Assembly: GCA_030652755.1 (NCBI GenBank)
Contig: JAUSPV010000298.1
Span: 1 to 36,163 of the forward strand
From: Caulobacter sp.
GTDB lineage: Bacteria > Pseudomonadota > Alphaproteobacteria > Caulobacterales > Caulobacteraceae
Length of the DNA stretch: 36,163 bases
Direction: 5' to 3'
Positions 14,757 through 27,412 of the stretch are shown piece by piece (positions within the stretch are counted from its first letter, which is position 1; each line of letters opens with the position of its first letter). The position numbers and the translations under genes are program-made. Below the pieces are notes generated by a model. That model had not been told where the DNA came from and did no database searches. It was given only the letters and a program-made list of their open reading frames with translations.

Positions 14757-15896
14757 TCAGGCGTCCAATCTGAGCCTTGCGGCCGGCGCGGAGGTCATCC
14801 CATCGGGCTCGAACGCGAGGCTCGACAGGAAGTCGATCAGGATATCGACGAAATCGGCTTCGGTTGTCCTTACGCGGTTGAGCGCGCCCATCCGGAAGGC
14901 CCAGAAGCTGTTGATATGCTGGAGGGAGCCGATCACCTCGCCAAGGCGGACGAACGTCGCCGGCGCGTTGAGGAGAAAATCCCTGAACTCCGACGGGCGC
15001 TCCTCAGCGAGGAAGATATTGTAGGACGAATCGTAGTCGCTGAGCGCCTGAATGATGTAGGCGAACGCCCGACTTATTGAGTCATTGATCCTGTTCTTTG
15101 AATCTAGAATATACTCCGCACTACCGAAGCTTCTGGGTGGCGCAGGCATAAAATTGCTGATCTCTACACATGTTTTCGAGCTCTCGCGCAGCGTAGATGA
15201 GCATATCCACTTGTAGTACAGCAGGCCGCGCCAGGCGAAGATGCCGTCGCGATATTGTCTGACGTCCATTCTGAGCGCTTCGCGCAGCGGCGCAAAGGAT
15301 GCATCCGGCGTCTCGGCCAGAAGCTTCTGCGTGAAGTCGCTTGCCCCGCGTTCATCATTGGCCGCCACCAGGTTTGTCAGGCCGGACATCTCCGACTCGA
15401 CGAACTCGCGCATTCGGACCAGATCGGCTTCACTGATGTTGAAGTATTCAAGTGCGGGCAAGTAGCCGTTCCGCGCCAGGGTTTCGCGGAGAAGGAACGG
15501 ATCCATTGATGGAATGTCATCAAGGATCTCGAGGAGGGTGTGATCCTCCGCATTGAGTCGCGAGTTGTCGGAGAAGTGCATTTCGAGAATGTGCTCGACG
15601 CGCTCCTCGCCAATGAAGAAGGACTGACCGCCGGCCCTCAGGTCGGATCTGTCCAGGGGGATGATGACCTTCGTCGCGGTGGTTCGTGATGTTGTGAACA
15701 GCTCCCGCTCATGCGGGCGAAGTCGGTGCTTCAGGATGATCGCCTGGTTGAGCGTAGGGTTCTTGAACATCGGCCTGTCCTGGAGGGCAGGGTTCCCGGC
15801 CTGTCGCCGGTGCACGGAGAGGAGGTTCAGGATACGCGCGGTGGATCCCGAGCGCTCCAGATTGACAAGGCTTCTGTCCGGGTTCGACCTGTTCAC
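14757..15896 (-). CDS. Hypothetical protein, 379 residues
   Basis: I do not recognise the family. The protein is mostly helical, soluble and acidic in the middle (RVEHILEMHFSDNSRLNAED, EILDDIPSMDPFLLRETLA), with a second helical part (RINDSISRAFAYIIQALSDY, FRDFLLNAPATFVRLGEVIG) and a last helix (ADFVDILIDFLSSLAF). There is no signal peptide. The GTG start overlaps the TGA of the upstream winged-helix gene (GTGA), so the pair is co-translated; an ATG at 15770 after AGGA is an alternative start. The context suggests a regulator plus partner. Confidence 0.75.
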   Translation of the reverse strand: MNRSNPDRSLVNLERSGSTARILNLLSVHRRQAGNPALQDRPMFKNPTLNQAIILKHRLRPHERELFTTSRTTATKVIIPLDRSDLRAGGQSFFIGEERVEHILEMHFSDNSRLNAEDHTLLEILDDIPSMDPFLLRETLARNGYLPALEYFNISEADLVRMREFVESEMSGLTNLVAANDERGASDFTQKLLAETPDASFAPLREALRMDVRQYRDGIFAWRGLLYYKWICSSTLRESSKTCVEISNFMPAPPRSFGSAEYILDSKNRINDSISRAFAYIIQALSDYDSSYNIFLAEERPSEFRDFLLNAPATFVRLGEVIGSLQHINSFWAFRMGALNRVRTTEADFVDILIDFLSSLAFEPDGMTSAPAARLRLDA

Positions 15897-16399
15897 CGTG
15901 TCGGGCCCGCCAGGGTGTCGCTGTCGTCCGGCGTGACGGTTCCGGACCTGAAGGACTCCAGCTTCTGGTGGACGTGATCCGCGAAGTCGACGAGGAGCGG
16001 TCGGTTCTCGGCCGCCATCTTCGCGAAGACCTCGGTCCTCAGGATGTCCTCCGAGACGATGAATTCACGGGACCCCATTCTGCTGCAGAATCCGGCCTCG
16101 ACGAGTTTGTGGACGTGCCTTCGGGTCGTCTCGTAGGGAAAGCCGGTCAGGTCAGAGACCGCGAGGATCGAGACCGGGCGCCGCAATGTGTCCGGGAACA
16201 CGCCTGAAACAGCGTCGGGGTTTACGGCGCGATCCTTGTTCAGATGGCTGACGGATGCCCTCAATATCGACATGAAGACGATCATCGTCGTGTAATCATT
16301 CATGAAAGCCCTGGACATCAGGGCAGCTGTATTCAAAAAATGATCTATAGATTGCGCGAGAAGGTACTTTTCCTTGTCGGCATCGTAGTGGTCGCTCAT
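15893..16399 (-). CDS. Winged-helix DNA-binding protein
   Basis: A 168-residue protein. The middle contains a plausible winged helix: RPVSILAVSDLTGFPYETTR, HVHKLVEAGFCSRMGSRE and FIVSEDIL read as helix, recognition helix (ETTRRHVHKL) and wing. The N-terminal third is helical (QSIDHFLNTAALMSRAFMND). It could be a MarR- or IclR-like regulator, but I cannot place it in a family. The ATG at 16399 begins a two-gene operon with the 379-residue protein (GTGA overlap). Confidence 0.75.
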   Translation of the reverse strand: MSDHYDADKEKYLLAQSIDHFLNTAALMSRAFMNDYTTMIVFMSILRASVSHLNKDRAVNPDAVSGVFPDTLRRPVSILAVSDLTGFPYETTRRHVHKLVEAGFCSRMGSREFIVSEDILRTEVFAKMAAENRPLLVDFADHVHQKLESFRSGTVTPDDSDTLAGPTR

Positions 16400-16512
16400 G
16401 GATTCAACCGTATGTCTCTGCGCGTGGACCCGTCGGCGATGGATTGGAGGGGCTCACCTCCACACGCATGGCTCTGTCACGAAAGCCAAAGATGGCGCGA
16501 ACGCCGGGGCTT

Positions 16513-16782
16513 TCAAACGCTGAGCCTTGCGATGCTGCCTGGCCGGTAGTCCGCCGCCGCGGCCATGTCGGAGGCGGCCCGGACGGGAAGTCGCGACATC
16601 ACTTCGCCGGTCTTGGCGTCCACGACGGTGAAGGCGTAGTCGCCGCTCTGGCGGTCACGATCAATGATCAGTCGCGAGGCCTGGGGCGCCGCGGCCGCGG
16701 CCGCCGTCGTGGGTGCGGGACCTTCTCGCCGGGCGGGAGCGACATGGCTTGGCAGGGTGGTCGGCCCGAGAGGTGTCATCAT
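16513..16782 (-). CDS. Small FlaG-like protein
   Basis: An 89-residue frame. After an Ala/Pro-rich start, the last 55 residues (RLIIDRDRQSGDYAFTVVDA, then KTGEVMSRLPV) resemble the FlaG pattern in which a strand pair is followed by D-x-x-TGEV-x-x-x-LP. FlaG proteins affect flagellar filament length. No flagellar gene is nearby, so this rests on the motif alone. It ends 114 bp before the winged-helix operon starts on the same strand. Confidence 0.5.
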   Translation of the reverse strand: MMTPLGPTTLPSHVAPARREGPAPTTAAAAAAPQASRLIIDRDRQSGDYAFTVVDAKTGEVMSRLPVRAASDMAAAADYRPGSIARLSV

Positions 16783-17069
16783 GGCATTCTACCGTTGTAA
16801 CGTGGGAGCCAGCCTGTGTCTTCGCGGTTGATGATGTCTTAATCGTGCCGAATGCGGCATGTAAAGTTTTACCCGCAACGAGTAAAATAGACCAAGTTGT
16901 CGGTTGTCGTATTGGTGCAATTAAGTACATAACTATGCCCACAATGGGTTTATTTGCACCAATGTCGATCATTGAGCGGCTGGAAGCTGAGGATTCCGAG
17001 CCACGCGCTGCGCGGAATGCTCTCGGGGGGGCAGCGAACCGGCGCGAAGCCGCCGGCAGGCCGCGCCGA
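16783..17069. other. AT-rich intergenic region with inverted repeats
   Basis: 287 bp without a gene, notably AT-rich from 16,840 to 16,970 compared with its surroundings. ATTGGTGCAA at 16911-16920 and TTGCACCAAT at 16954-16963 form a perfect 10-bp inverted repeat with 33 bp between. GTAAAGTTTTAC at 16861-16872 is a shorter palindrome. The region is upstream of the FlaG-like gene and downstream of apaG, so it probably contains the promoter and operator of the former. No protein fits. Confidence 0.5.
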
Positions 17070-17501
17070 TCAGTTCACCCGCCTCAGGGCGCCGGGCAGG
17101 TGCAGGGAGAAGGCCGGGATTTCGACGTCGAAGGTCTCGCCGGCCGCGGTGACCATCTGGTAGGTCCCGCGCATGCTGCCCGACGGCGTGGTCAGCGGGC
17201 AGCCGGAGTTATAGCGGAACGCCTCGCGGGGGCCGAGCACGGGCTGTTCCCCGACCACGCCCGGGCCCTTGACCTCCTCGACCCGGTTGAGGGCGTCGGT
17301 GATGATCCAGTGGCGCGACATCAGGGTCACCGTCTCGGCGCCGTGGTTCTCGATCTCCACGACATAGGACCACAGCCATTGGCCCGCCTCGGGCTGCGAC
17401 TGCTCGGCCATATAGGCCGGCGCGACCCGCACCAGGACGTCCCGGGTGCGGGCTTCGTACACCGGATTGTCCGGCGTGCCGCGGCGGCGGATGCGGGTCA
17501 T
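17070..17501 (-). CDS. apaG: ApaG protein
   Basis: A 143-residue protein of the ApaG/DUF525 beta-sandwich family. Clear family phrases are WLWSYVVEIENHGAETVTLMSRHWIITDA, EEVKGPGVVGEQPVLGP, FRYNSGCPLTTPSGSMRGTYQM and FDVEIPAFSLH. Linked in the literature to cobalt and magnesium tolerance; its biochemistry is unclear. Its ATG shares a base with the metZ stop (TGATG), so it is translated with metZ. Confidence 0.95.
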   Translation of the reverse strand: MTRIRRRGTPDNPVYEARTRDVLVRVAPAYMAEQSQPEAGQWLWSYVVEIENHGAETVTLMSRHWIITDALNRVEEVKGPGVVGEQPVLGPREAFRYNSGCPLTTPSGSMRGTYQMVTAAGETFDVEIPAFSLHLPGALRRVN

Positions 17502-18685
17502 CAGACGGCGTCCAGCGCCCGGCTGACGTCGCGCGACAGGTCCCTCACGTCCTCGAGGCCGACCGACATCCGCACGAAGCCCTCGGTCAGGCCGATCTCC
17601 AGCCGCTTGTCCTCGGGCATGGCCCGGTGCGTCGTCGTCGAGGGATGGGTGGCCATCGACTTGGCGTCGCCCAGGTTGTTGGAGATGTCGACGATCTCCA
17701 GCGCGTCGAGGAACCGCCAGGCGGCCTCGCGCGAGCCCAGGTCGAAGGCCAGCAGGTTCGAAAAGCCGCTCATCTGGGTGCGGGCGATCAGGGCCTGGGG
17801 ATGATCCTGGCGGCCCGGGTAGCGGACGCTGAGCACCCTGGCGTGGTCGCCGATCAGGTCGGCGAGCACCGCGGCGGTCTCGGTCTGGCGGCGCACCCGC
17901 AGGTCCAGGGTCTCAAGACCCTTCAGCAGGATCCAGGCGTTGAACGGCGAGATCGCCGGGCCGGTGTGGCGGATAATGTCGCGGTAGGACTCCTCCAGGA
18001 AGTCGCGCCCGCCCAGGATGGCGCCGCCCAGCACCCGGCCCTGGCCGTCGATGTGCTTGGTGGCCGAATAGACGACGACGTCGGCGCCCAGGGTCAGCGG
18101 CTTCTGGAAGATCGGCGTGGCGAAGACGTTGTCGACGACCACCTTGGCCCCCGCCGCGTGGGCGATCCTGGCCACCGCCGCGATGTCGGTGATCTCCAGC
18201 AGCGGGTTGGCCGGGCTCTCCAGCAGCACGACCCTGGTATTGGGCCGCATCGCCGCCTGCCAGGCGTCCAGGTCGGTGGCGTCGACATAGGTCGTCTCGA
18301 CGCCGAAGCGCGGCAGCCAGTTGGAGATGATCCAGTTGCAGGAGCCGAACAGCGCCCGGCCGGCCACCAGGTGGTCGCCCGCCTTCAACAGGCCGGTCAG
18401 CGCCACATGGACGGCGGCCATGCCCGAGGCCAGGGCGCGGCAATGCTCGGCCCCCTCCAGCAGGGCCAGCCGCTCCTCGAACATCTGGGTCGTGGGATTG
18501 GCGTAGCGCGAATAGACGAAGCCGGGGTCCTCGCCGGAGAACCGGCGGTCGGCGGCGCCGGCGCTCTCGTAGGCATAGCTCTGGGTCAGGAACAGCGCCT
18601 CGGAGGTCTCGCCGAAGTTGCTTCGGTTGAGCCCGCCGCGGATGAGGCGGGTGGCGGGTTCCCAGCTGTTGGGGTCTTCGGCCAT
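17501..18685 (-). CDS. metZ: O-succinylhomoserine sulfhydrylase (MetZ)
   Basis: A PLP enzyme of the Cys/Met metabolism family, 394 residues, making homocysteine directly from an acylated homoserine and sulfide. Family motifs: YSRYANPTTQMFEERLA, LASGMAAVHVAL, the substrate and PLP region VLLESPANPLLEITDI, and the PLP lysine in VVYSATKHIDGQGRVLGG. The Arg near the C-terminus (FVRMSVGLED) is present. I chose ATG 18685. MetZ is favoured over cystathionine lyases or synthases by the WEPATRLIRGG start, but acyl specificity is not proven. apaG follows directly. Confidence 0.88.
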   Translation of the reverse strand: MAEDPNSWEPATRLIRGGLNRSNFGETSEALFLTQSYAYESAGAADRRFSGEDPGFVYSRYANPTTQMFEERLALLEGAEHCRALASGMAAVHVALTGLLKAGDHLVAGRALFGSCNWIISNWLPRFGVETTYVDATDLDAWQAAMRPNTRVVLLESPANPLLEITDIAAVARIAHAAGAKVVVDNVFATPIFQKPLTLGADVVVYSATKHIDGQGRVLGGAILGGRDFLEESYRDIIRHTGPAISPFNAWILLKGLETLDLRVRRQTETAAVLADLIGDHARVLSVRYPGRQDHPQALIARTQMSGFSNLLAFDLGSREAAWRFLDALEIVDISNNLGDAKSMATHPSTTTHRAMPEDKRLEIGLTEGFVRMSVGLEDVRDLSRDVSRALDAV

Positions 18686-18691
18686 GGCTAC

Positions 18692-18729
18692 GGCTTTCCT
18701 GAATGAATGGCCGGCATCAACAGGAAACC
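18692..18729 (-). promoter_or_regulatory. Hairpin that can hide the metZ ribosome-binding site
   Basis: On the minus strand GGTTTCCTG (18729-18721) pairs with CAGGAAAGCC (18701-18692), with one bulged base and a 19-base loop containing GCCGGC. The 3' arm carries AGGAAAG, the only Shine-Dalgarno-like sequence ahead of the metZ ATG at 18685. If formed, the stem would block translation. I do not see a match to a known SAM riboswitch. Confidence 0.45.
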
Positions 18730-18749
18730 GCCCCACCCGGTCAAGCGGG

Positions 18750-18809
18750 GGGCTTAAGGGGGACACACACTCATTTGCTCGCAAATGAGTGTGTGTCCCC
18801 CTTAAGCCC
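18750..18809. repeat. Perfect 29-bp inverted repeat
   Basis: The left arm 18750-18778 and right arm 18781-18809 are exact reverse complements with two bases between, a 60-bp perfect palindrome. The arms read GGGCTTAAGGGGGACACACA and onward. It lies in the divergent gap between metZ and the small membrane protein gene, so it is not a normal terminator. It may be a dispersed palindromic element. Confidence 0.9.
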
Positions 18810-18939
18810 TCTCAAGCGCGCTTTTGGAAAGGACGCACCGCGTGTCGGCGTCCGCCCCCAAAAGTCCCCACCCGGAACCCGAACCGCGTTCGGCGAGTTG
18901 TGCGTCTACCTTGACGCTTCGTCAGACGGGGAGGGTTCC

Positions 18940-19158
18940 ATGCCGCTTGCGTTTGTGTTCCGCGTGTTCGCCGCCATCCTGGGGCTTCTGGGGGCGCTCA
19001 ACGTCATTGCCCTGGTGCTGGCCGATCCGATCGCGCGCTATTCGCCGGTCGAGGTGCGGGCCATGGGCAGCCTGAGCGAGGCGCTGCTGCTGTTCGGGGT
19101 CGGGGCGGGGATCTATCTGCTCGGCGTCGGCGCGGGGCCCAGGAAGGCGCATCACTGA
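18940..19158 (+). CDS. Small two-span membrane protein
   Basis: A 72-residue protein with two membrane helices (FVFRVFAAILGLLGALNVIALVL and LLLFGVGAGIYLLGVG). I know of no named family. ATG 18940 follows GGGAGGGTTCC, a good ribosome-binding site; a longer frame from 18703 runs through the palindrome and is unlikely. It lies 117 bp before the lasso-like operon on the same strand; a link between them is possible but not shown. Confidence 0.65.
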   Translation: MPLAFVFRVFAAILGLLGALNVIALVLADPIARYSPVEVRAMGSLSEALLLFGVGAGIYLLGVGAGPRKAHH

Positions 19159-19275
19159 CTTGAGGGCCCGTCCGACCGGCGGTGGAGGCGCAAGGGCCTT
19201 GCCGCTCCGATTGCGGCGGCCGCCGGGCGCATGGTAGGCGATGGGGCAGTGGATTTCGGCTCCGGGGACGCCCTG

Positions 19276-19551
19276 ATGATCACCCTTGAGCGCCGCTTTG
19301 TCCGCAACGACAGTCTCCTGGCGACAGAGGTCGATGGCGCCTTGGTCATGATGGATGTCGACTCGGGCAAATACTTCCATCTCGACCCGGTCGGCGCGAA
19401 GATCTGGGCGATGATCGACCGGCCCACCGCCGTGTCGGACGTCTGTGATCGGCTCCTGGGCGCCTACGACGGTGAGCTCGGCCAGATCCAGGTCGATGTC
19501 CTGGCCTATTTCGCGCGGCTGGAGGCGGCGGACCTGGTGCGGCGCGCATGA
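19276..19551 (+). CDS. PqqD-like RiPP recognition protein (lasso B1 type)
   Basis: A 91-residue PqqD-family protein, the RiPP recognition element that binds the leader of a precursor peptide. The winged-helix pattern is plain: MITLERRFVRNDSLLATEVD, GALVMMDVDSGKYFHLDPVG, AKIWAMIDRPTAVSDVCDRL. I prefer ATG 19276, which follows GGGGACG at good spacing and gives the family length, over ATG 19231. Its stop overlaps the kinase-like gene (ATGA). Gene context, with an asparagine-synthetase homologue downstream, points to lasso-peptide B1 function. Confidence 0.85.
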   Translation: MITLERRFVRNDSLLATEVDGALVMMDVDSGKYFHLDPVGAKIWAMIDRPTAVSDVCDRLLGAYDGELGQIQVDVLAYFARLEAADLVRRA

Positions 19552-20537
19552 CGGTCGGCGCGTCCGCCGCGCCGGCGGCGAGAGGCGGGGAGAGGCGCCG
19601 TTACCGCCTGAACGGCCTGCTGGTGGACAGCGATCGGGCGTTCCGGTTTCTCGTCGCCGCCGAGGCGGCCGGCGCCCCCGACGTCATCCTGCGGTTCGGG
19701 CCTGTCCGGCGCCCCGACGCGGCGCGGATCTGGCAGGACAGGATCCTGTCGCTGCACGCCGACGGCGACGCGTTTCTGGAGGTTCCGGGCGCTGTGACGG
19801 CCCTGATCCGCGGAGGGCGCGAGATCACCGTCGAGGCCGCCGACGGCGCGACCGACGCGGTCCTGCACAACTGGGTCTTCGGTCAGGCCATCGGCATCCT
19901 GTGTCACCAACGCGGAACGCCGCCGCTACACGCCTGCGTGGTGGAGATCGGCGGCAGGGCCGTGGCGCTGGCCGGTCACAGCGGCAGCGGCAAGTCGACG
20001 ACGGCCCGGGCGCTGATCGCGCGCGGTCATGGCCTGCTGACCGACGACCAGGCGATCATCGATCCGGACTCCCTGCTGGTCGAGCCCGGCTGGGCGGCGA
20101 TCAAGGTCTGGGCGAACACCGCCGCGGCCGCCGGCGACAGGCTCGATCCGGCGCTGCGCGTCCACGCGCAACTGGACAAGTTCCAGCTGCCTCTCGAAGG
20201 GGCCTTCCGGCGCACGCCGACGCCGCTGGGGCTGGTGGTCATCCTCCGCAAGGGTGAGCCCGGCGAAGGACCGCGCGGCGAGATGGCGGACTGGCGACGG
20301 GCGGCCGCCCTGCTGAAGACCTTCGTCTACCGGCATCGCGTCGGCGACGCGCTGGACGGGGGGCGGGCCCAGTTCGCCTGGTCCCTCGCCCTGGCACGGC
20401 GCGCGCCCGTGGTCACGCTGCGGCGACCCGACGACCTGGCCGGGGTGCCCGCCCTCTGCGACTGGATCGAACAGGCCGCCGCCGGCGCCGCGATCGCGGC
20501 CGCCCGCCCGGTCGAACCGGTCCGGAGCCGGGCGTGA
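19548..20537 (+). CDS. HPr-kinase-like protein (lasso-cluster kinase)
   Basis: A 329-residue protein with an HprK-like fold in its second half: PPLHACVVEIGGRAVALAGH, the P-loop GHSGSGKST (143-151), then GLLTDDQAIID (Asp pair at 166-167). The first half is a divergent N-terminal domain. In paeninodin-type clusters a homologous kinase phosphorylates the C-terminal serine of the lasso precursor. The predicted precursor at 22505-22642 ends in Ser, which fits. It overlaps its neighbours by four bases at both ends (ATGA and GTGA), so the three genes form one coupled operon. Confidence 0.85.
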   Translation: MTVGASAAPAARGGERRRYRLNGLLVDSDRAFRFLVAAEAAGAPDVILRFGPVRRPDAARIWQDRILSLHADGDAFLEVPGAVTALIRGGREITVEAADGATDAVLHNWVFGQAIGILCHQRGTPPLHACVVEIGGRAVALAGHSGSGKSTTARALIARGHGLLTDDQAIIDPDSLLVEPGWAAIKVWANTAAAAGDRLDPALRVHAQLDKFQLPLEGAFRRTPTPLGLVVILRKGEPGEGPRGEMADWRRAAALLKTFVYRHRVGDALDGGRAQFAWSLALARRAPVVTLRRPDDLAGVPALCDWIEQAAAGAAIAAARPVEPVRSRA

Positions 20538-22474
20538 GCACCATCGCGGGGCTATGGAACTGGAGCGGGCGGGGCGGGGCCGGCGAGGACCTGGACCGCA
20601 TGCAGGCGGCGCTGACCCCGTTCGGGCGCGACCAGGCGGGACGTTGGGACGGCGGGTCGATCGCCCTGGGCAGCCGGCTGTCTCGACTGCTGCCCGAGGA
20701 CGACCAGGACCGCCAGCCGCTGATCGGCGGCGGCGGCCGGTTCGTGCTGGCGGCGGACCTGCGGCTCGACAACCGGCCCGAACTGGCCGCCGCGCTCGGG
20801 GTCGAGCCTGTGCGCGCCGCGGGCATGGCCGACGCCGACATGCTGTTGCTGGCCTGGGAGCGCTGGACGCTGGCCACGCCGGCGCGGCTGCTGGGCGATT
20901 TCGCCTTCGCCGTCTGGGACCGTGAGCAGCGGGCGCTCCACCTCGTCCGCGACGCGCTGGGGGAAAGGCCGATCTTCGTGACCCGGCAGCCCGGCCGGAT
21001 CGCCTTCGCCAGCCTGTATCCCGGTCTCCATGCGCTGCCCGGGGTCGCCCGGGGCGCCGATCTGGACGCGGTCCGCGCCTATGCCGCCCGCCTTCCGGAA
21101 CAGGGGACGGGCAGCTTCCACCTCGGGATCGACCGGGTCGAGCCCGGAACCCGGCTGACCGTCCATGCCGACGGGCGCGAGGCCGTTGACCGCTGGTGGG
21201 ACTTTCCGGCGCCGGAACGGCTCCGCCTGCGCCGGGAGGACGACTACGCGGACCTCTACCGCGAGACCTTTGATCGCTGCGTCCGCGACCGGCTGCGGGC
21301 GCGGGCCCCCGTCGCCAGCCACCTCAGCGGCGGCCTGGACAGTTCGGCGGTGACCAGCACGGCCGCCGCGATCCTCGCCGAGCGCGGCGAGGGGCTGAGC
21401 GCCTACACCGCCGTCCCGATGGCCGATGTTCCCCTGCACGTCCCGAAGGGACGCATCATCGATGAATCGGCGCTCGCCGCCCTGACGGCCGCCCGCTTTC
21501 CCAACATTCGCCACGAGCTGGTCGGGCGCGACGGGCGCGCGATTGGCGAGGATCTCGCCGGCATCTACGAGACCCTGAACCAGCCTGTGCGGAACCTCTG
21601 CAACTGGACCTGGATCCTCGACATCCAGCGCCGGATGCAGGCCCGGGGTGAGCGGGTGCTGCTGACGGCGACCTACGGCAACGTCACCGTCAGCCCCACG
21701 GCCGGACTGATGCTGCCCGAGCGCCTCGCCACCGGCCAGGTCGCGGGGGTGATGGCCGACATCCTCTCTGGCGACCGGAACGGCGCCTCGCGCAAGGGCC
21801 ACGCCTATGCCGCCATCGGGCCGCTGCTGCCGCGAGCGCTGGACAGCCTCATCCGCCGCGCCGCGGGCCAGTCGTCGCCGGCCCGGCTGCCGTTTTCGCC
21901 CCTGTCAGCGGGGGCCTTCGAGGCGATGGTGGCGGCCGAGCGCGGGCGACGGCCGCACGATCCGACCTACTTCGATCCCAACCTGCGCTGGCGGGCGACG
22001 GTCCACAGCGTGATGACCCAGCTGGACCCCGGGCCCTTCCACAAGATGCATCTGGCGGGGCAGGGCGTGGACCAGCGCGATCCCTGTCGTGACCCGCGGC
22101 TGCTGCGGCTGATCCTGGCGATGCCGCCGGAAATCATCGGCTCGGGCGGAGAAACGCGACGGCTGTACCGCCGCGTGTTCGCTCCGCGCGTGCCCGAGAC
22201 GGTCTATCGCACCCCGACCGTCAAGGGCCTGCAGACCGCCGACTGGTCCTATCGCGTGGCGCGCGGCCGCCGCCAATTGACCGAGGTGATCGAGACGGCG
22301 GCCAGGATCGCGCCGATCGCGGAAATGTTCGATGTGCCGGGTCTGCGCGCTGATATCGCCGAAGGGCCGGACCACGCCGTGGCGAACGACGCCGGCTATG
22401 CGATGCGGCGGCGCTGGCGCTTCCTGCATGGCATAGCCACTATGGACTTCGCGACCAGGGCCGGCGCGCGGTGA
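20534..22474 (+). CDS. Asparagine-synthetase-like lasso macrocyclase
   Basis: A 646-residue AsnB homologue. The N-terminus begins MSTIAGLWNWSG without the Cys2 nucleophile of glutamine-using AsnB, so it should not hydrolyse glutamine. The degenerate amidotransferase domain continues through DADMLLLAWERW, LGDFAFAVWD and GERPIFV. The ATP-pyrophosphatase loop is intact at LSGGLDSSA (about 264-272). Lasso cyclases adenylate an Asp or Glu side chain in the core and join it to the new N-terminus; this protein has their features. The GTG start (20534) overlaps the kinase stop. No B2 protease gene is next to it. Confidence 0.85.
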   Translation: MSTIAGLWNWSGRGGAGEDLDRMQAALTPFGRDQAGRWDGGSIALGSRLSRLLPEDDQDRQPLIGGGGRFVLAADLRLDNRPELAAALGVEPVRAAGMADADMLLLAWERWTLATPARLLGDFAFAVWDREQRALHLVRDALGERPIFVTRQPGRIAFASLYPGLHALPGVARGADLDAVRAYAARLPEQGTGSFHLGIDRVEPGTRLTVHADGREAVDRWWDFPAPERLRLRREDDYADLYRETFDRCVRDRLRARAPVASHLSGGLDSSAVTSTAAAILAERGEGLSAYTAVPMADVPLHVPKGRIIDESALAALTAARFPNIRHELVGRDGRAIGEDLAGIYETLNQPVRNLCNWTWILDIQRRMQARGERVLLTATYGNVTVSPTAGLMLPERLATGQVAGVMADILSGDRNGASRKGHAYAAIGPLLPRALDSLIRRAAGQSSPARLPFSPLSAGAFEAMVAAERGRRPHDPTYFDPNLRWRATVHSVMTQLDPGPFHKMHLAGQGVDQRDPCRDPRLLRLILAMPPEIIGSGGETRRLYRRVFAPRVPETVYRTPTVKGLQTADWSYRVARGRRQLTEVIETAARIAPIAEMFDVPGLRADIAEGPDHAVANDAGYAMRRRWRFLHGIATMDFATRAGAR

Positions 22475-22504
22475 CCCGGCGACCGACGCCCGGAAGCGTC
22501 GTCT

Positions 22505-22642
22505 TCAGCTGCCGGTGTTGGAGTCGCCGGCGCCGCCGTTGAAGGCTTCGGTTTCTGACGCGACGTCCACCACCAACAGCTCCGGCGCGGTCCAGGGCTC
22601 GCGATCGGCGGGCCGTTCGACTGTTTCCCGTGTCTCGTTCAT
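22505..22642 (-). CDS. Predicted lasso-type precursor peptide, 45 residues
   Basis: A small gene facing the operon tail to tail. The ATG at 22642 has GAGGAAACC just upstream. The leader contains REPWTAPELLVVDVASE, the W-x-x-P-x-L pattern of lasso leaders used with PqqD proteins. A Thr then stands two residues before the likely cut, giving the core AFNGGAGDSNTGS. Asp at core position 8 would allow an eight-residue ring from Ala1 to Asp8 with a five-residue tail, and the last residue is Ser, the expected site for the neighbouring kinase. The core boundaries are inference. Confidence 0.7.
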   Translation of the reverse strand: MNETRETVERPADREPWTAPELLVVDVASETEAFNGGAGDSNTGS

Positions 22643-22705
22643 GGTTTCCTCGTCGTTCACTCGCCAGCTAATCGGCCCCAAGACCTGAGGGCGATGGCGC
22701 TGCTT

Positions 22706-22711
22706 TGTCAA
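22706..22711 (-). promoter_or_regulatory. Possible -35 element of the precursor gene
   Basis: On the minus strand TTGACA lies 64 bases ahead of the precursor ATG. The matching -10 region (TCAGGT) is poor, so only the -35 is offered. It would let the peptide gene be transcribed independently of the operon that faces it. Confidence 0.3.
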
Positions 22712-22815
22712 CAACGACAGGCGCCGCCACGGCTCGGGACCGCACCGTCGCATAGGCCCGGCATCCCTCCACCCCGGCGTCTTCCATCCGTCACTTGCAT
22801 TTGCAGCCAAGGGCC

Positions 22816-23850
22816 ATGAGTAATGGCCCGACGATGAATGACGCTCTTTCCGCGGGGATTCTCCCCTGCCAGGCCATCGAGGACCTGATCGCCCAGGGGG
22901 CCATCAGCTCGCTCACGCCCTTTGACCCGGACCAGGTCCAGCCGGCCAGTCTCGACCTGAGGCTGGGAGAGCGCGCCTGGCGGGTTCGCGCCTCGTTCCT
23001 GCCGCGCCACCGGCGGGTGATGGAGCGGCTGCCCGACGTGGCCATGCACCAGCTCGACCTCAGCCAGGGGGCAGTGTTCGAGCGCGGCTGCGTCTATATC
23101 GCCGAAGTCCAGGAGCGGCTGGCCCTGCCCAAGGGCATCGCGGCGCGGGGCAATCCCAAGAGCTCGACCGGCCGGGTCGACGTGTTCGTGCGGCTGCTGA
23201 CCGACCACGGCGCGGCCTTCGACGACGTGGCCGAGGGCTACACCGGGCCGCTGTTCGTCGAGATCGCGCCGCAGACGTTTTCCGTGCTGGCGCGCACCGG
23301 CACGCGGCTGAACCAGCTGCGGCTCAAGCTCGGTGCCCCGCCCCGGCTGTCGAGCCGCGACGTCGGCGTCGACCTGTCGACCGGCATGGCCGGCTTCCGC
23401 GGCCGTCGGCACGCCGGGATCATCGACCTCGACAAGGAGGACGGCCACGATCCGCGCGACTTCTGGGAGCTGCTGGAATCGCCAAAAGGCGAGCTGCTGC
23501 TCGATCCGGGCGAGTTCTACATCCTGGCCTCCAAGGACGACATCGAGATCCCCGTCGACCAGGCGGCCGAGATGACGCCGATCGACCCGGCGGTCGGGGA
23601 GTTCCGCGTCCACTACGCCGGCTTCTTCGATCCCGGCTTCGGGGCCGACGAGACCAACTCGCGTGGCTCCAAGGGCGTGCTCGAGGTGCGCAGCCACGAG
23701 ACGCCGTTCCTGCTCGAGGACGGCCAGACCGTGGCCCGGCTGGTCTATGAGCCGCTCACGGCCCGGCCGACGCGGCTGTATGGCGAGGACGGCTCCCACT
23801 ACCTGCGGCAGGGGCTGAAGCTCTCCAAGCACTTCCGGCCGTGGAAATAG
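22816..23850 (+). CDS. dcd: 2'-deoxycytidine 5'-triphosphate deaminase (long DCD form)
   Basis: A 344-residue protein of the alphaproteobacterial long DCD family, about twice the length of a usual Dcd because two dUTPase-fold halves are joined. Motifs: ILPCQAIEDLIAQGAI, QVQPASLDLRLGERAWRVR, RGNPKSSTGRVDVFVRLLTD (Ser/Arg site for the triphosphate), YTGPLFVEIAPQTF, then in the second half YAGFFDPGFG and VLEVRSHETPFLLEDGQ. It makes dUTP from dCTP for thymidylate synthesis. I chose ATG 22816 (AAGGG before it); ATG 22834 is possible. Confidence 0.88.
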   Translation: MSNGPTMNDALSAGILPCQAIEDLIAQGAISSLTPFDPDQVQPASLDLRLGERAWRVRASFLPRHRRVMERLPDVAMHQLDLSQGAVFERGCVYIAEVQERLALPKGIAARGNPKSSTGRVDVFVRLLTDHGAAFDDVAEGYTGPLFVEIAPQTFSVLARTGTRLNQLRLKLGAPPRLSSRDVGVDLSTGMAGFRGRRHAGIIDLDKEDGHDPRDFWELLESPKGELLLDPGEFYILASKDDIEIPVDQAAEMTPIDPAVGEFRVHYAGFFDPGFGADETNSRGSKGVLEVRSHETPFLLEDGQTVARLVYEPLTARPTRLYGEDGSHYLRQGLKLSKHFRPWK

Positions 23851-23915
23851 GGTTCAGCGGCGGCGCGGGGGCGGGGCGCCCGAATTCCGCCGCCGCGTTC
23901 GCCGAAAGGTCCCCC

Positions 23916-24770
23916 ATGCTGACGTCCTTCAAACGCGCCTTCACCGCCCTGGCGGTCCTGGTCGCCACCGCCCTGACGGCGCTTCCGGCCGCCGCCGATC
24001 CAGCGCTCTGGGTGATCCGGGACGAGGACTCGACCGTCTATCTGCTGGGCACCGTCCATGTGCTGAAGCCCGACACCGTCTGGCGCACGCCCGCCATCGA
24101 CGCGGCGCTGGCCGAGACCGACGATGTCGCCGCCCTGCGGCCGCTGGTCGCCCGCTATGGCGTGGACCGGGAAAACCCGCTGAGCGGCAAGCTCACGGCC
24201 GATCAGAAGGCGCGGCTGGACGCGGCGGCGGCGGCGATGGGGAGCAGCGGCGCGGCGCTGGAGCCGATGCGGCCCTGGCTGGCCGCCCTGCAGCTCAGCA
24301 TGGGGCCGCTGACCAGGGCCGGCTACGATCCGGCCAGCGGCGTGGAGTCGAAGCTGAAGGCCGCCGCCCGCGAGGCGGGCAAGCCGATCCGCACCCTGGA
24401 GTCCCTGGAGCAGCAGATCGGCTTCTTCGCGGACCTGCCGCCGGCGGTGGAGCTGGCCTTCCTGCTCTCGACGCTCGACGAGATGGACGAGGGTCCGTCC
24501 ATGCTGGACGCCCTGGTCGCCGCCTGGAGCGCGGGCGACGTCGAGGCGCTCGACGCGATGATGGTGGCCGAACTCGCCGCCGACTATCCGGCGCTCCACG
24601 AGGCCCTGCTGGTGCGCCGCAACAGGACCTGGGCCGGCCAGATCCAGACCCTGCTGGCCGGCGACGGCGTGTCGGTGATCGCGGTGGGCGCCGCTCACCT
24701 GGTCGGCGATGACAGCGTGCAGGTCCAGCTCGCCGCGCTGGGCGTCACGGTCGAGCGGCTGGCCGACTGA
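23916..24770 (+). CDS. TraB/GumN family protein, secreted
   Basis: A 284-residue protein with a signal peptide (FKRAFTALAVLVATALTALP, cut near AAADP). The two GxxH motifs of TraB/GumN are present: LLGTVHVLKPDTVWRTPAID near the start and AVGAAHLVGDDSVQ near the end. The stretch that normally follows the first motif and carries a conserved Glu looks shortened here (ETDDVAALRPLVARYG), an apparent in-frame loss of about ten residues. TraB proteins are thought to be metal-dependent peptidases. It starts 65 bp after dcd. Confidence 0.82.
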   Translation: MLTSFKRAFTALAVLVATALTALPAAADPALWVIRDEDSTVYLLGTVHVLKPDTVWRTPAIDAALAETDDVAALRPLVARYGVDRENPLSGKLTADQKARLDAAAAAMGSSGAALEPMRPWLAALQLSMGPLTRAGYDPASGVESKLKAAAREAGKPIRTLESLEQQIGFFADLPPAVELAFLLSTLDEMDEGPSMLDALVAAWSAGDVEALDAMMVAELAADYPALHEALLVRRNRTWAGQIQTLLAGDGVSVIAVGAAHLVGDDSVQVQLAALGVTVERLAD

Positions 24771-24787
24771 GCGGCCGGGGCCGGCGC

Positions 24788-25393
24788 CTATTCGGCGGCG
24801 ACCTTGGGCCGCAGGTAGATCGACCGCTTCGGCGTGGTCATCACCCGGTGCAGCATCGGCACAAAGGCCTCCAGCGGCATCGACTCGTAGTTCGGGTCGA
24901 ACGCCGCCTGGTCATAGAGGTGGCAGAACTGCGCCGTGTATTCGAAGTGCGGATGGCCGCGGAACTGCTCGCGCATGTCGCGGTCCAGCCCCAGGTGGTG
25001 GAAGAAGTAGTAGCCCTGGAAGATGCCGTGCTGCTGGACCATCCAGTGATTGGCCTCGGACACGAAGGGGAAGACCATCGCCGCGCCGATGTCGGGGTGA
25101 TTGCGCGGGCAGAGCACGTCGCCGATGTCGTGCAGCAGGGCGCAGACGACGTACTCCTCGTCACGGCCGTCCTTGAAGGCGCGGGTGGCGGTCTGCAGGC
25201 TGTGCTCCAGCCGGTCGACGACGAAACCGCCGCAGTCGCCCTTGAGCAGCATCAGATGGCTGACGATCCGTTCGGGCAGCTCGCGGCCGTACTGGGCCGA
25301 GGCGCCGGCGATGATCGCCCAGTCTTCCTGGGTGCTCTCGGTCATGGCGTGGAACTTCGCCCGCGCCTCTTCCCCGTGCTCGCCGTCCGCCAT
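24788..25393 (-). CDS. HD-domain protein, PhnZ-like
   Basis: A 201-residue HD-superfamily protein. Candidate metal ligands: H64 (RLEHSLQTATRA), H88 and D89 (ALLHDIGD), H99 (NHPDIGAAM) and a later histidine. This arrangement, with LEHSLQTA ahead of LLHDIGD, resembles PhnZ-type diiron oxygenases more than ordinary HD phosphohydrolases. However, the segment before H64 (KGDCGGFVVDR) lacks the tyrosine that PhnZ uses near its substrate. The substrate is therefore open. I chose ATG 25393. The gene faces the TraB gene tail to tail. Confidence 0.75.
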   Translation of the reverse strand: MADGEHGEEARAKFHAMTESTQEDWAIIAGASAQYGRELPERIVSHLMLLKGDCGGFVVDRLEHSLQTATRAFKDGRDEEYVVCALLHDIGDVLCPRNHPDIGAAMVFPFVSEANHWMVQQHGIFQGYYFFHHLGLDRDMREQFRGHPHFEYTAQFCHLYDQAAFDPNYESMPLEAFVPMLHRVMTTPKRSIYLRPKVAAE

Positions 25394-25600
25394 GGCCGCT
25401 CTCCCAACGATCGTTTGACGGATGGTGCGGGAGGCGGGGCGGGTCGTCAATCGGCTCCGCCGCCCGGCGCTTCGGCGCTCAACTGAAAGTCGTCGCGACT
25501 CTCTACTTCACTCAACTTTCTCCTTTTAGAGAATTCTTGAGCTTCTGGTCGGATTGTAGTCGCCAACACGCCGTCGTGACGGCCACGCCCAACGGGAAGA

Positions 25601-27412
25601 ATGACCCCAGGAGCCACAGCCGGCGCGCTTGCGCCGACCGACGTCCCGCCCGCCGCGATTCCGGCGGGGGCGACCCCGGTCTTTGTCGTTCGCCCCGGCG
25701 GAGAGCCGGCCGGCGAGGTCACGCGCGTCCTGCGCCTGGCCTATCCTGATGTGACACCGGTTATCCTCGGCTCCGGCGCCGAGGCCGCCAGCAGGTCCGG
25801 CGAAGTAGCTTGTTTCGACTTCCTTGGCCTGCCGTTGCCGGAGATCGGCCAGCACCTGAGGGCGGCGACCCGCACGGCCAGTCATGCCGAGATCGTCGTC
25901 TTCCTGGACGGCGCCGACCGGACGGCCGTCTCGGCCTGCCTGACCGTCACCGCCTCGCCCGAGCGGATGACCTTTCTCGTCGCGCCGTTCGACGCCGCCG
26001 AGGCCGCCGCCACCCTGAGGACCGTGGCCCTCCGCGCCCGCACGGGCGGCCAGGCCCGCTCCGGCGACGCCGACCGCGATGCGATCATCCGCCGGCTCGA
26101 GGTCGAGGTCATGGAGGTCCAGGCCCGGCTCGACGTCGCCCTGCACGTCGCCCGTCATGACGCCCTGACCGGCCTGCCCAACCGCGCCGGCTTCGTCGGC
26201 GAACTGACGAGCCGGCTCGCCAACGGCTTCCAGAGCCAGACGGTGTTCCTGATCAACATCGACCGCTTCAAGCTGGTCAACGAGACGCTCGGGCACGAGG
26301 CGGGCGATGATCTGATCCGCAAGATCGGCGTCGCCCTGGCCACCGTCACGCCGGCCAACGGCCTGCTGGCCCGGCTGGGCGGCGACGAGTTCGGCGTCGT
26401 CACCGAAAGCCTGTCCGAGCAGGGCATCGCCGACTTCTGCAAGCTGCTGCTGCGGGTCTGCGCCCAGAGTCGCCGGGTCTATGGCCACGAGGTGCAGGTC
26501 AGCATCTGTATCGGCGTCTGCGTCCAGAAGCCGGACCAGGACAACGGCGACCTGCTGCGCCAGGCCGACCTGGCGCTGCGCGCGGCCAAGCGCGAGGGGC
26601 GCAACCGCTACCGCGTCTATGACGAGGAGATCGCCCAGACCTCGGTCAGGCGGCTGACGCTGGAGTCGGGGCTGGAGCGCGCCCTGCGGGCCGGCGAGTT
26701 CGCCATGGTCTACCAACCGATCGTCGACGCCCGCTCCTGTCAGATCCTCGGCTACGAGGCGCTGGTGCGCTGGAACAGCCCGCAGTTCGGTCCGGTGTCG
26801 CCCGCCGACTTCATCCCGGTGGCCGAGGAGACCGGCCTGATGCTGGAACTGGGCGACTGGATCCTGCGCCAGGCGATGAAAGATTGCCGACGCTGGGGCG
26901 GACCCTACGTTTCGATCAACCTGTCGGCCCGCCAGTTCCTCTACCAGAAGATCGGCGACCGGATTCTGCAGTACGCCCAGGACTGCGACCTGCCCGCCGC
27001 CCGCATCCAGGTCGAGCTGACCGAGACGGCGATCATCGATGATGTCGAGCGGGCCAGCGAGAACCTGAGGGTGCTGCGCGAGGCGGGTGTGCGGGTGGCG
27101 CTGGACGACTTCGGCACCGGCTATTCCAGCCTGACCTACCTGCAGCGCTTCGACATCGACTGCATCAAGATCGACAAGTCGTTCGTCGACGACATCACCA
27201 CCGACCGCGAGTCGGCGATGATCGTCGCCTCGGTCACCCGGCTGGCCAAGGCGCTGGGCATGTCGGTGGTCGCCGAGGGGGTCGAGACCGAGCCGCAGCG
27301 CCAGGTGCTGCTGGCCGCCGGCTGCGACTATCTGCAAGGCTACCACTACGGCCGCCCCATCGCCCCCGGCGAGATCGCCGTCGCCCTGGGCCAGCCGCCC
27401 GCCGACGTCTGA
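25601..27412 (+). CDS. GGDEF-EAL cyclic-di-GMP signalling protein
   Basis: A 603-residue protein. Residues 25-160 look like a receiver-like domain without obvious phosphorylation residues. The GGDEF domain follows (HDALTGLPNRAGF, INIDRFKLVNETLGHEAGDD, GGDEF at 260-264), then an EAL domain (GYEALVRWNSP near 385, VELTETAII, LDDFGTGYSSLTYLQ, IKIDKSFVDDI, VAEGVET). Both motifs are intact, so cyclase or phosphodiesterase activity is possible; I see no RxxD inhibitory site ahead of GGDEF. ATG 25601 follows GGGAAGA. There is no membrane span, so it is cytosolic. Confidence 0.93.
   Translation: MTPGATAGALAPTDVPPAAIPAGATPVFVVRPGGEPAGEVTRVLRLAYPDVTPVILGSGAEAASRSGEVACFDFLGLPLPEIGQHLRAATRTASHAEIVVFLDGADRTAVSACLTVTASPERMTFLVAPFDAAEAAATLRTVALRARTGGQARSGDADRDAIIRRLEVEVMEVQARLDVALHVARHDALTGLPNRAGFVGELTSRLANGFQSQTVFLINIDRFKLVNETLGHEAGDDLIRKIGVALATVTPANGLLARLGGDEFGVVTESLSEQGIADFCKLLLRVCAQSRRVYGHEVQVSICIGVCVQKPDQDNGDLLRQADLALRAAKREGRNRYRVYDEEIAQTSVRRLTLESGLERALRAGEFAMVYQPIVDARSCQILGYEALVRWNSPQFGPVSPADFIPVAEETGLMLELGDWILRQAMKDCRRWGGPYVSINLSARQFLYQKIGDRILQYAQDCDLPAARIQVELTETAIIDDVERASENLRVLREAGVRVALDDFGTGYSSLTYLQRFDIDCIKIDKSFVDDITTDRESAMIVASVTRLAKALGMSVVAEGVETEPQRQVLLAAGCDYLQGYHYGRPIAPGEIAVALGQPPADV

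Follow-up and report, generated by a model that had tools for sequence, protein, structure and literature searches.

A phospho-lasso-type gene set of Caulobacter whose B2 leader peptidase is probably encoded away from the operon

The window analyzed here is a single contig of 36,163 nucleotides (36 kb; G000:C134, GenBank JAUSPV010000298.1) from a Caulobacter sp. assembly of 3.5 Mb in 315 contigs (GCA_030652755.1). It carries a lasso-type gene set consisting of a precursor, the leader-binding protein B1, an HPr-kinase-like peptide kinase and an AsnB-like macrolactam cyclase, and it contains no gene for B2, the cysteine peptidase expected to cut the leader. This set is probably a phospho-lasso set of the paeninodin/SyanK type that has been cut down to four genes and is served in trans by a B2 from elsewhere in the genome, most likely the one on contig C86 and less likely the one on contig C160. 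We favor a B2 from elsewhere because the genome has two B2 genes and because relatives repeatedly have B2 off the operon.

A four-gene set without B2

The features of the locus, in window positions, are as follows.

19276-19551, plus strand: B1, a stand-alone RRE/PqqD-like leader-binding protein of 91 aa (ATG at 19276, stop at 19549-19551), assigned from profiles and solved-chain matches
19548-20537, plus strand: HPr-kinase-like peptide kinase of 329 aa (ATG at 19548, stop at 20535-20537), assigned from profile and motif residues
20534-22474, plus strand: AsnB-like lasso-type macrolactam cyclase of 646 aa (GTG at 20534, stop at 22472-22474), assigned from profile and trees
22642-22505, minus strand: precursor of 45 aa with leader motif WTAPELLVVDVASETE and predicted core AFNGGAGDSNTGS; relatives carry similar peptides on the opposite strand
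19157-22771, no strand: insert without counterpart in the nearest relative (G028), delimited by blastn of the dcd locus of that genome against the window
18940-19158: unassigned small open reading frame (ORF)

B1, kinase and cyclase are co-directional and joined by four-base overlaps (ATGA between B1 and kinase, GTGA between kinase and cyclase). The precursor faces this operon from just downstream on the minus strand, with an AGGA-type ribosome site directly upstream of it, and none of the four frames is interrupted. When window positions 15000-27000 were scanned for the motif, this peptide remained the single precursor candidate. The ORFs between 17.5 and 23.85 kb encode an O-succinylhomoserine sulfhydrylase, the small ORF product, the three enzymes, the precursor and a dCTP deaminase; all seven were compared with NCBIfam and six of them with Pfam, and the precursor gave no match. 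The coordinates, overlaps and facing precursor of the original prediction, which had been made from the sequence alone, were thus borne out, and its claim that the locus lacks B2 held for the whole contig: none of the 653 window ORFs of at least 30 aa matched the B2 profile at E up to 1, and the B1, kinase and cyclase profiles found one match each. No exporter or isopeptidase was present among the seven ORFs between 17.5 and 23.85 kb, the only ones searched for either.

B1 matched PqqD (PF05402; E = 3e-16) and the lasso_PqqD_Bac model NF033536 (E = 9e-16, 57.8 bits, under the model cut-off of 80). Its closest solved chains were 9x90, described as 'Lasso peptide biosynthesis PqqD family chaperone', and TbiB1 (5v1u), and by both profiles and solved chains it provides the RRE/B1 component of lasso biosynthesis. 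The kinase matched Hpr_kinase_C (PF07475; E = 1.2e-8, 35.2 bits against a cut-off of 33.3) and, far under the model cut-off, TIGR04352 (E = 6e-12), and its best solved match was an HPr kinase. Reading of its sequence located the His, GxxGxGKS and Asp-Asp residues in PLHACVV, GHSGSGKS and LTDD, respectively, which is the His-Lys-Asp-Asp set of paeninodin-type kinases; the motif is given for BsfK and lasso kinases, and the residues are reported to be important (PMC10368454). Since kinase-bearing lasso clusters are described as an established subtype (PMC9266682, PMC10368454), the kinase is not an odd member of the window set.

The best NCBIfam match of the cyclase was the lasso cyclase model NF033535 (E = 3e-69, 234 bits), under a cut-off of 525 bits that was passed in none of the 14 genomes examined. 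The SGGLDSS motif is kept, and position 2 lacks Cys, a residue that has a role there in glutamine-dependent enzymes. To place the cyclase we used relatives from one genome-collection scan, 80 of 88 of which were kept. A tree built from 85 cyclases put the window in a proteobacterial group of 11 rows (window, L045-L051, L053, L055 and L056; SH-like approximate likelihood ratio test, 95), nested in a 15-row group (100), sister to Cohnella and Paenibacillus cyclases. A 37-row tree with outgroups, in which the benenodin-type cyclase row used as outgroup formed a very long branch, concurred (94/94 for the 11-row group and 97/98 for the joint group with Bacillota). On this placement the cyclase groups beside the kinase-bearing (paeninodin-type) lasso-type clusters of Bacillota; the term 'lasso-type' is based on family profiles and on what the clusters contain, because the tree rows include no experimentally proven lasso cyclase. 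Three explanations had been offered for the missing B2, namely a B2 acting from elsewhere, another protease, or a product that is not a standard lasso. The first is the one that we favor, and both trees argue against the idea that the enzyme lies outside lasso-type cyclases.

The precursor combines an RRE-binding WxxP leader motif (WTAP), T(-2), A1, D8 and a C-terminal Ser, the acidic residue lying within the span of positions 7-9 expected for Asp or Glu. According to PMC10368454, T(-2) is critical for recognition during processing. An opposite-strand peptide downstream of the cyclase was also found in L045 to L050, L054, L055 and L057 and at L039:18711; the L045 precursor, with Cys in the motif, was missed by the motif scan and found by eye. 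From 26 candidate peptides we aligned 14, omitting one of G025, a spurious one in L049, those of L077, L169, L175 and L178, two of L058 and four of L063. When the alignment was registered on the leader Trp, Thr stood at Trp+14 in 8 of the 14 peptides, 7 of which have D8 in the core, and a C-terminal Ser was present in 11 of the 14, the window core included. T(-2), A1 and D8 are common to L045, L046, L047, L048, L050, the window and one of the two L049 precursors.

B2 genes elsewhere in the genome and across the cyclase clade

A genome-wide search for B2, as the original prediction had proposed, was made with the Pfam model and found B2 on two other contigs, at C86:38-484 and C160:5565-5990; both proteins keep the invariant Cys and His of the alignment. 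An in-cluster B2 is thus lacking, with none on the window contig and two elsewhere in the genome. The C86 B2 is solitary; it ends 37 bases short of the contig end, and its neighbors are mrp antiporter-like genes (named by eye). A similar gene in Caulobacter G025 (80.7% identity over 553 bases, a match that spans little more than the gene itself) is likewise solitary, in a different neighborhood, and these two genomes are the only ones among 101 with a B2 at least 75% identical to that of C86. G028 has neither a C86-like B2 nor the insert. In the B2 tree, the C86 protein falls in a 7-row group (95/87) together with the Aquabacter B2. Contig C86 also carries a stand-alone B1-like gene (G000:C86:32237-32506; L044:6238-6507), which has a methyltransferase-like ORF and a 304-aa ORF (by eye) ahead of it and an IS-like fragment behind it. 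The profiles for kinase, cyclase and B2 found nothing within 6 kb of it. This gene does not account for the missing B2; it possibly belongs to another small set for a ribosomally synthesized and post-translationally modified peptide.

To see where relatives keep B2, we compared the 11 rows of the cyclase clade, leaving aside L056, a contig fragment, and L048, whose contig ends 0.6 kb past the cyclase. Six of the remaining nine rows (window, L046, L047, L050, L053 and L055) have no B2 in the flanks read. In a seventh, L049 of Blastomonas AAP53, B2 lies 4.4 kb off in a separate B2-ABC-nucleotidyltransferase operon. Only two have an adjacent B2, which stands within the operon between B1 and kinase in L045 and adjoins the cyclase in L051. 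B. natatoria has a trio similar to that of Blastomonas AAP53 close to the end of a contig (L171), and its contig with the cluster (L048) also ends early. In L050 the place of the kinase is taken by a 327-aa ORF with no match to the kinase profile or to Pfam. Among loci of at least 14 kb with B1 or kinase, B2 was present in 29 of 33 outside the clade versus 3 of 7 inside it, the latter excluding the window and L053 (which has no B1 or kinase). A single detachment event, with the window, L046-L050, L053 and L055 as one clade, was rejected by the approximately unbiased test. This eight-row group was named after the tree had been seen, with L048 included by its kinship with L049 despite the early contig end and L049 scored as detached although its B2 is only 4.4 kb off; parsimony needs three changes.

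Of the 14 genomes examined, 13 have a B2 above the Pfam cut-off. Ferrovibrio, Rhizorhabdus, Aquabacter and Caulobacter G025 carry solitary B2 genes, whose flanks, read for about 6 kb or more on each side, gave no match to B1, kinase or cyclase. Those of Ferrovibrio and Rhizorhabdus lie on a contig other than that of the cyclase, and in the B2 tree the two fall together with the L045 protein encoded within its operon (100/99); Ferrovibrio has an additional B2 in another cluster. In Aquabacter a single cyclase match at E 1e-10 and a single B2 above the cut-off are separated by 20 kb. Retention of T(-2), the recurrence of solitary B2 genes and the Aquabacter pairing together support an account in which B2 acts in trans. 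On this account, B1 would bind the WxxP leader and the kinase would phosphorylate or polyphosphorylate the C-terminal Ser13. B1 would also recruit a B2 encoded away from the operon, and this cysteine peptidase, most likely that of C86 and less likely that of C160, would cut after T(-2)-E(-1). The cyclase would then link Ala1 with Asp8, which would close a macrolactam of 8 residues and leave a tail of 5; the predicted m/z of this cyclised core is 1136.460, with 79.966 more per phosphate. Gene content, the insert, the placement of the cyclase, the conservation of the precursor and the further B2 genes with their conserved Cys and His are observed here; we infer the chemical steps, the service of the C86 B2 to the window set and any threading of the tail.

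Several observations weigh against this account. The cyclase-B2 pairing of Aquabacter is one of bare genes, because neither B1 nor kinase occurs within 8 kb of the cyclase (L053) and the precursor scan of about 2 kb on each side of it was empty. The Blastomonas B2 lies outside the L045-type B2 group, one Blastomonas peptide lacks D8, and in the L055 precursor the Thr stands one residue earlier. As for C86, its B2 is nearest to B2 genes whose cyclases (L098 and L175) sit in another cyclase group, and its downstream neighbors could not be read because the gene ends so close to the contig end. Identity to G028 is 82-83% for the mrp-like genes next to it, compared with 86-93% for the flanks of the insert; given this lower identity and an estimated contamination of 3.4%, C86 may represent an accessory region, or the contig may be a stray one. 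The link between the C86 B2 and the four-gene set is therefore circumstantial. Finally, Undibacterium squillarum, the exception among the 14 genomes, has a similar set and no B2, either at the Pfam cut-off or with an 18-row profile at E up to 1, though its genome is a draft and B2 may fall in a gap.

The same species provides the main argument for a route in which B2 is not needed, a housekeeping peptidase trimming the leader or the cyclase taking an exposed N-terminus, so that the four-gene set is self-sufficient. Its genes comprise B1, kinase, sulfotransferase, cyclase and a T(-2) precursor. Pseudomycoidin, too, is reportedly made in vivo without leader and leader peptidase, to judge from the title of a 2019 report by Zyubko. 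In addition, linear polyphosphorylated peptides (LPP) are described as using an SpI-type peptidase together with an RRE and an HprK-like kinase (PMC13381572). We nevertheless regard a self-sufficient set as unlikely, considering that most detached sets retain T(-2), that B2 is present in nearly all of the genomes examined, and that no peptidase travels with the insert, whose only genes are B1, kinase, cyclase and precursor. It is just as doubtful that a whole phospho-lasso lineage has been freed from B2, with phosphorylation of the last residue and leader trimming by a general peptidase replacing dedicated cleavage. If true, U. squillarum would be the clearest natural example of such a lineage and the Caulobacter insert a portable one.

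It is also conceivable that the C160 B2, and not that of C86, serves both pathways of the genome. The C160 set (L042, G000:C160:1-14000), the second lasso-type set of the genome, is complete, its B2 adjoining its own B1, kinase and cyclase and keeping the conserved Cys and His, and in Sphingomonas QA11 all three B2 genes above the cut-off similarly lie in other lasso-type clusters. By contrast, the C160 set is only distantly related to that of the window, its B2 and cyclase both falling in distant tree groups. No WxxP or YxxP precursor that would show its leader type was found in the 14 kb read around it, and RREs are reported to be able to discriminate between leaders (PMC13381572). Sharing of the C160 B2 is accordingly an outside chance. 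The C160 set also carries a radical SAM/B12 protein.

The insert beside dcd

We compared the window with its nearest relative, G028, the dcd protein of which is 98% identical. In blastn of the dcd locus, G028 matched window positions 18826-19156 (86%) and then resumed from 22772 (93%); about 208 bases lie between these matches in G028 versus 3.6 kb in the window. The window thus carries an insert beside dcd that contains only the four genes. An assembly-edge artefact was ruled out, as the contig continues for about 19 kb and 13 kb past either side of the set and G028 has the empty site. dcd was found in 57 of 61 genus genomes, yielding 30 loci including that of the window. None of the other 29 had a B1, kinase or cyclase match within the sequence read (at most 1.5 kb on each side), and metZ lay inside the fetched flank in 26 of them. 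A recent loss of B2 in place among close kin is thus unsupported. The original prediction would have been undermined by a B2 at the same locus of close relatives, and none of these loci shows its B1, kinase or cyclase in the sequence read; on the other side, in the closest homologous set, L045 (cyclase identity, 44%), a B2 gene separates B1 from the kinase, and for that reason B2 may have been lost before transfer. One of the dcd loci, L148, gave a single weak precursor-like match (33%, E = 7e-4).

The insert may alternatively be a decaying or incomplete import that lost B2 with its transfer and yields no mature product. In support of decay, a cyclase at E 1e-30 was found among 75 genus genomes only in the window genome (two) and, in divergent form, in G025 and G028, and the set resides in an insert of high GC content (72.3%, compared with 65.9% for the whole window). 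Moreover, among the seven T(-2)/D8 cores only that of the window, with the tail SNTGS, has no bulky tail residue (by eye), whereas its nearest sibling peptides have one. On the other hand, the four frames are intact, the overlaps are tight, the key residues are kept, and sets without adjacent B2 recur in distant genera; we therefore find decay improbable. The lack of a bulky plug residue makes threading of the predicted product doubtful. This product may instead be a branched ring that is not threaded or, more speculatively, the phosphorylated Ser may act as the plug.

A perfect inverted repeat (window 18750-18809; 29-nt arms, 2-nt spacer) lies in the stretch that separates the small ORF at 18940 from the sulfhydrylase gene. 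It starts exactly where the G028 match ends (at 18749, resuming at 18826) and thus marks a second local difference near the insert.

Related systems and other genes in related loci

The window set shares with the paeninodin, ThcoK and SyanK systems, as described, a split B1, an HPr-kinase homologue, an AsnB-like cyclase, a WxxP leader and an Ala1 core (PMC9266682, PMC13381572, PMC12427821), as well as a C-terminal Ser, the residue that the kinase modifies in those systems (PMC9266682, PMC13381572). It differs from the paeninodin type in having no B2 and, among the named ORFs, no exporter, and in its precursor, which lies downstream on the opposite strand. Its core is of 13 aa with Asp at 8, whereas paeninodin is given as 23 aa with the first Asp at 9; the window core is as short as huascopeptin, the shortest lasso peptide named in the same source (PMC12427821). 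Pseudomycoidin also comes from a kinase-bearing lasso cluster, but that cluster is reported to contain its own B2 (PsmB2) and a nucleotidyltransferase (PMC10368454). The bsf cluster of Bradymonas sediminis resembles the window set in its discrete RRE, kinase and cyclase, and its B1 is reported to help the kinase as well as B2; unlike the window set, it is described with B2, an ABC transporter, phosphorylation at Ser3 and Ile(-2) (PMC10368454). LPP pathways likewise pair an RRE with an HprK-like kinase without B2, but are described with an SpI-type peptidase, a YxxP leader and no cyclase (PMC13381572). A pathway of this type was ruled out for the window, where the leader is WxxP, a cyclase is present and the insert has no peptidase gene. 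The PAD of citrulassin offers a precedent for a lasso-pathway enzyme encoded away from its cluster, although it is a tailoring enzyme (PMC12971885), whereas the detached enzyme here would be the core leader peptidase.

Seven of the related loci, which are where such genes were looked for, encode small phage-tail-collar (PF07484) proteins near the cyclase, mostly as tandem groups of two or three. Pfam confirmed between one and three of them in each locus, and the others were named by eye. The term 'tail collar' was not found in the papers searched for it. The stretches are as follows.

L045:10594-12284: PF07484 stretch
L047:10455-12171: PF07484 stretch
L052:10386-12073: PF07484 stretch
L054:10279-11979: PF07484 stretch
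L057:10407-12086: PF07484 stretch
L077:11705-13346: PF07484 stretch
L175:8250-9365: PF07484 stretch

Sulfotransferase-domain genes stand beside kinase, B1 or cyclase at L047:7147-7977, L039:9519-10352 and L077:6887-7750, which suggests a further modification in relatives that the window set would lack. L039 (G025:C3:133001-153000), from another Caulobacter, carries within 20 kb the genes for three lasso-type cyclases and as many kinases and B1 proteins, along with two B2 genes; its sets are separated by IS240-type transposase genes, of which one was confirmed and a near-identical one named by eye.

A detached B2 is best read as a new gene-organization variant of the ordinary phospho-lasso pathway; our search of the open literature, outside of which most subscription papers fall, found no report of one. 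Because cluster-based genome mining expects B2 beside the cyclase, detached sets may be missed or scored as broken. Such sets also make it possible to ask in a natural setting whether B1 alone can recruit a distant B2, and whether a lasso-type pathway can run without B2.

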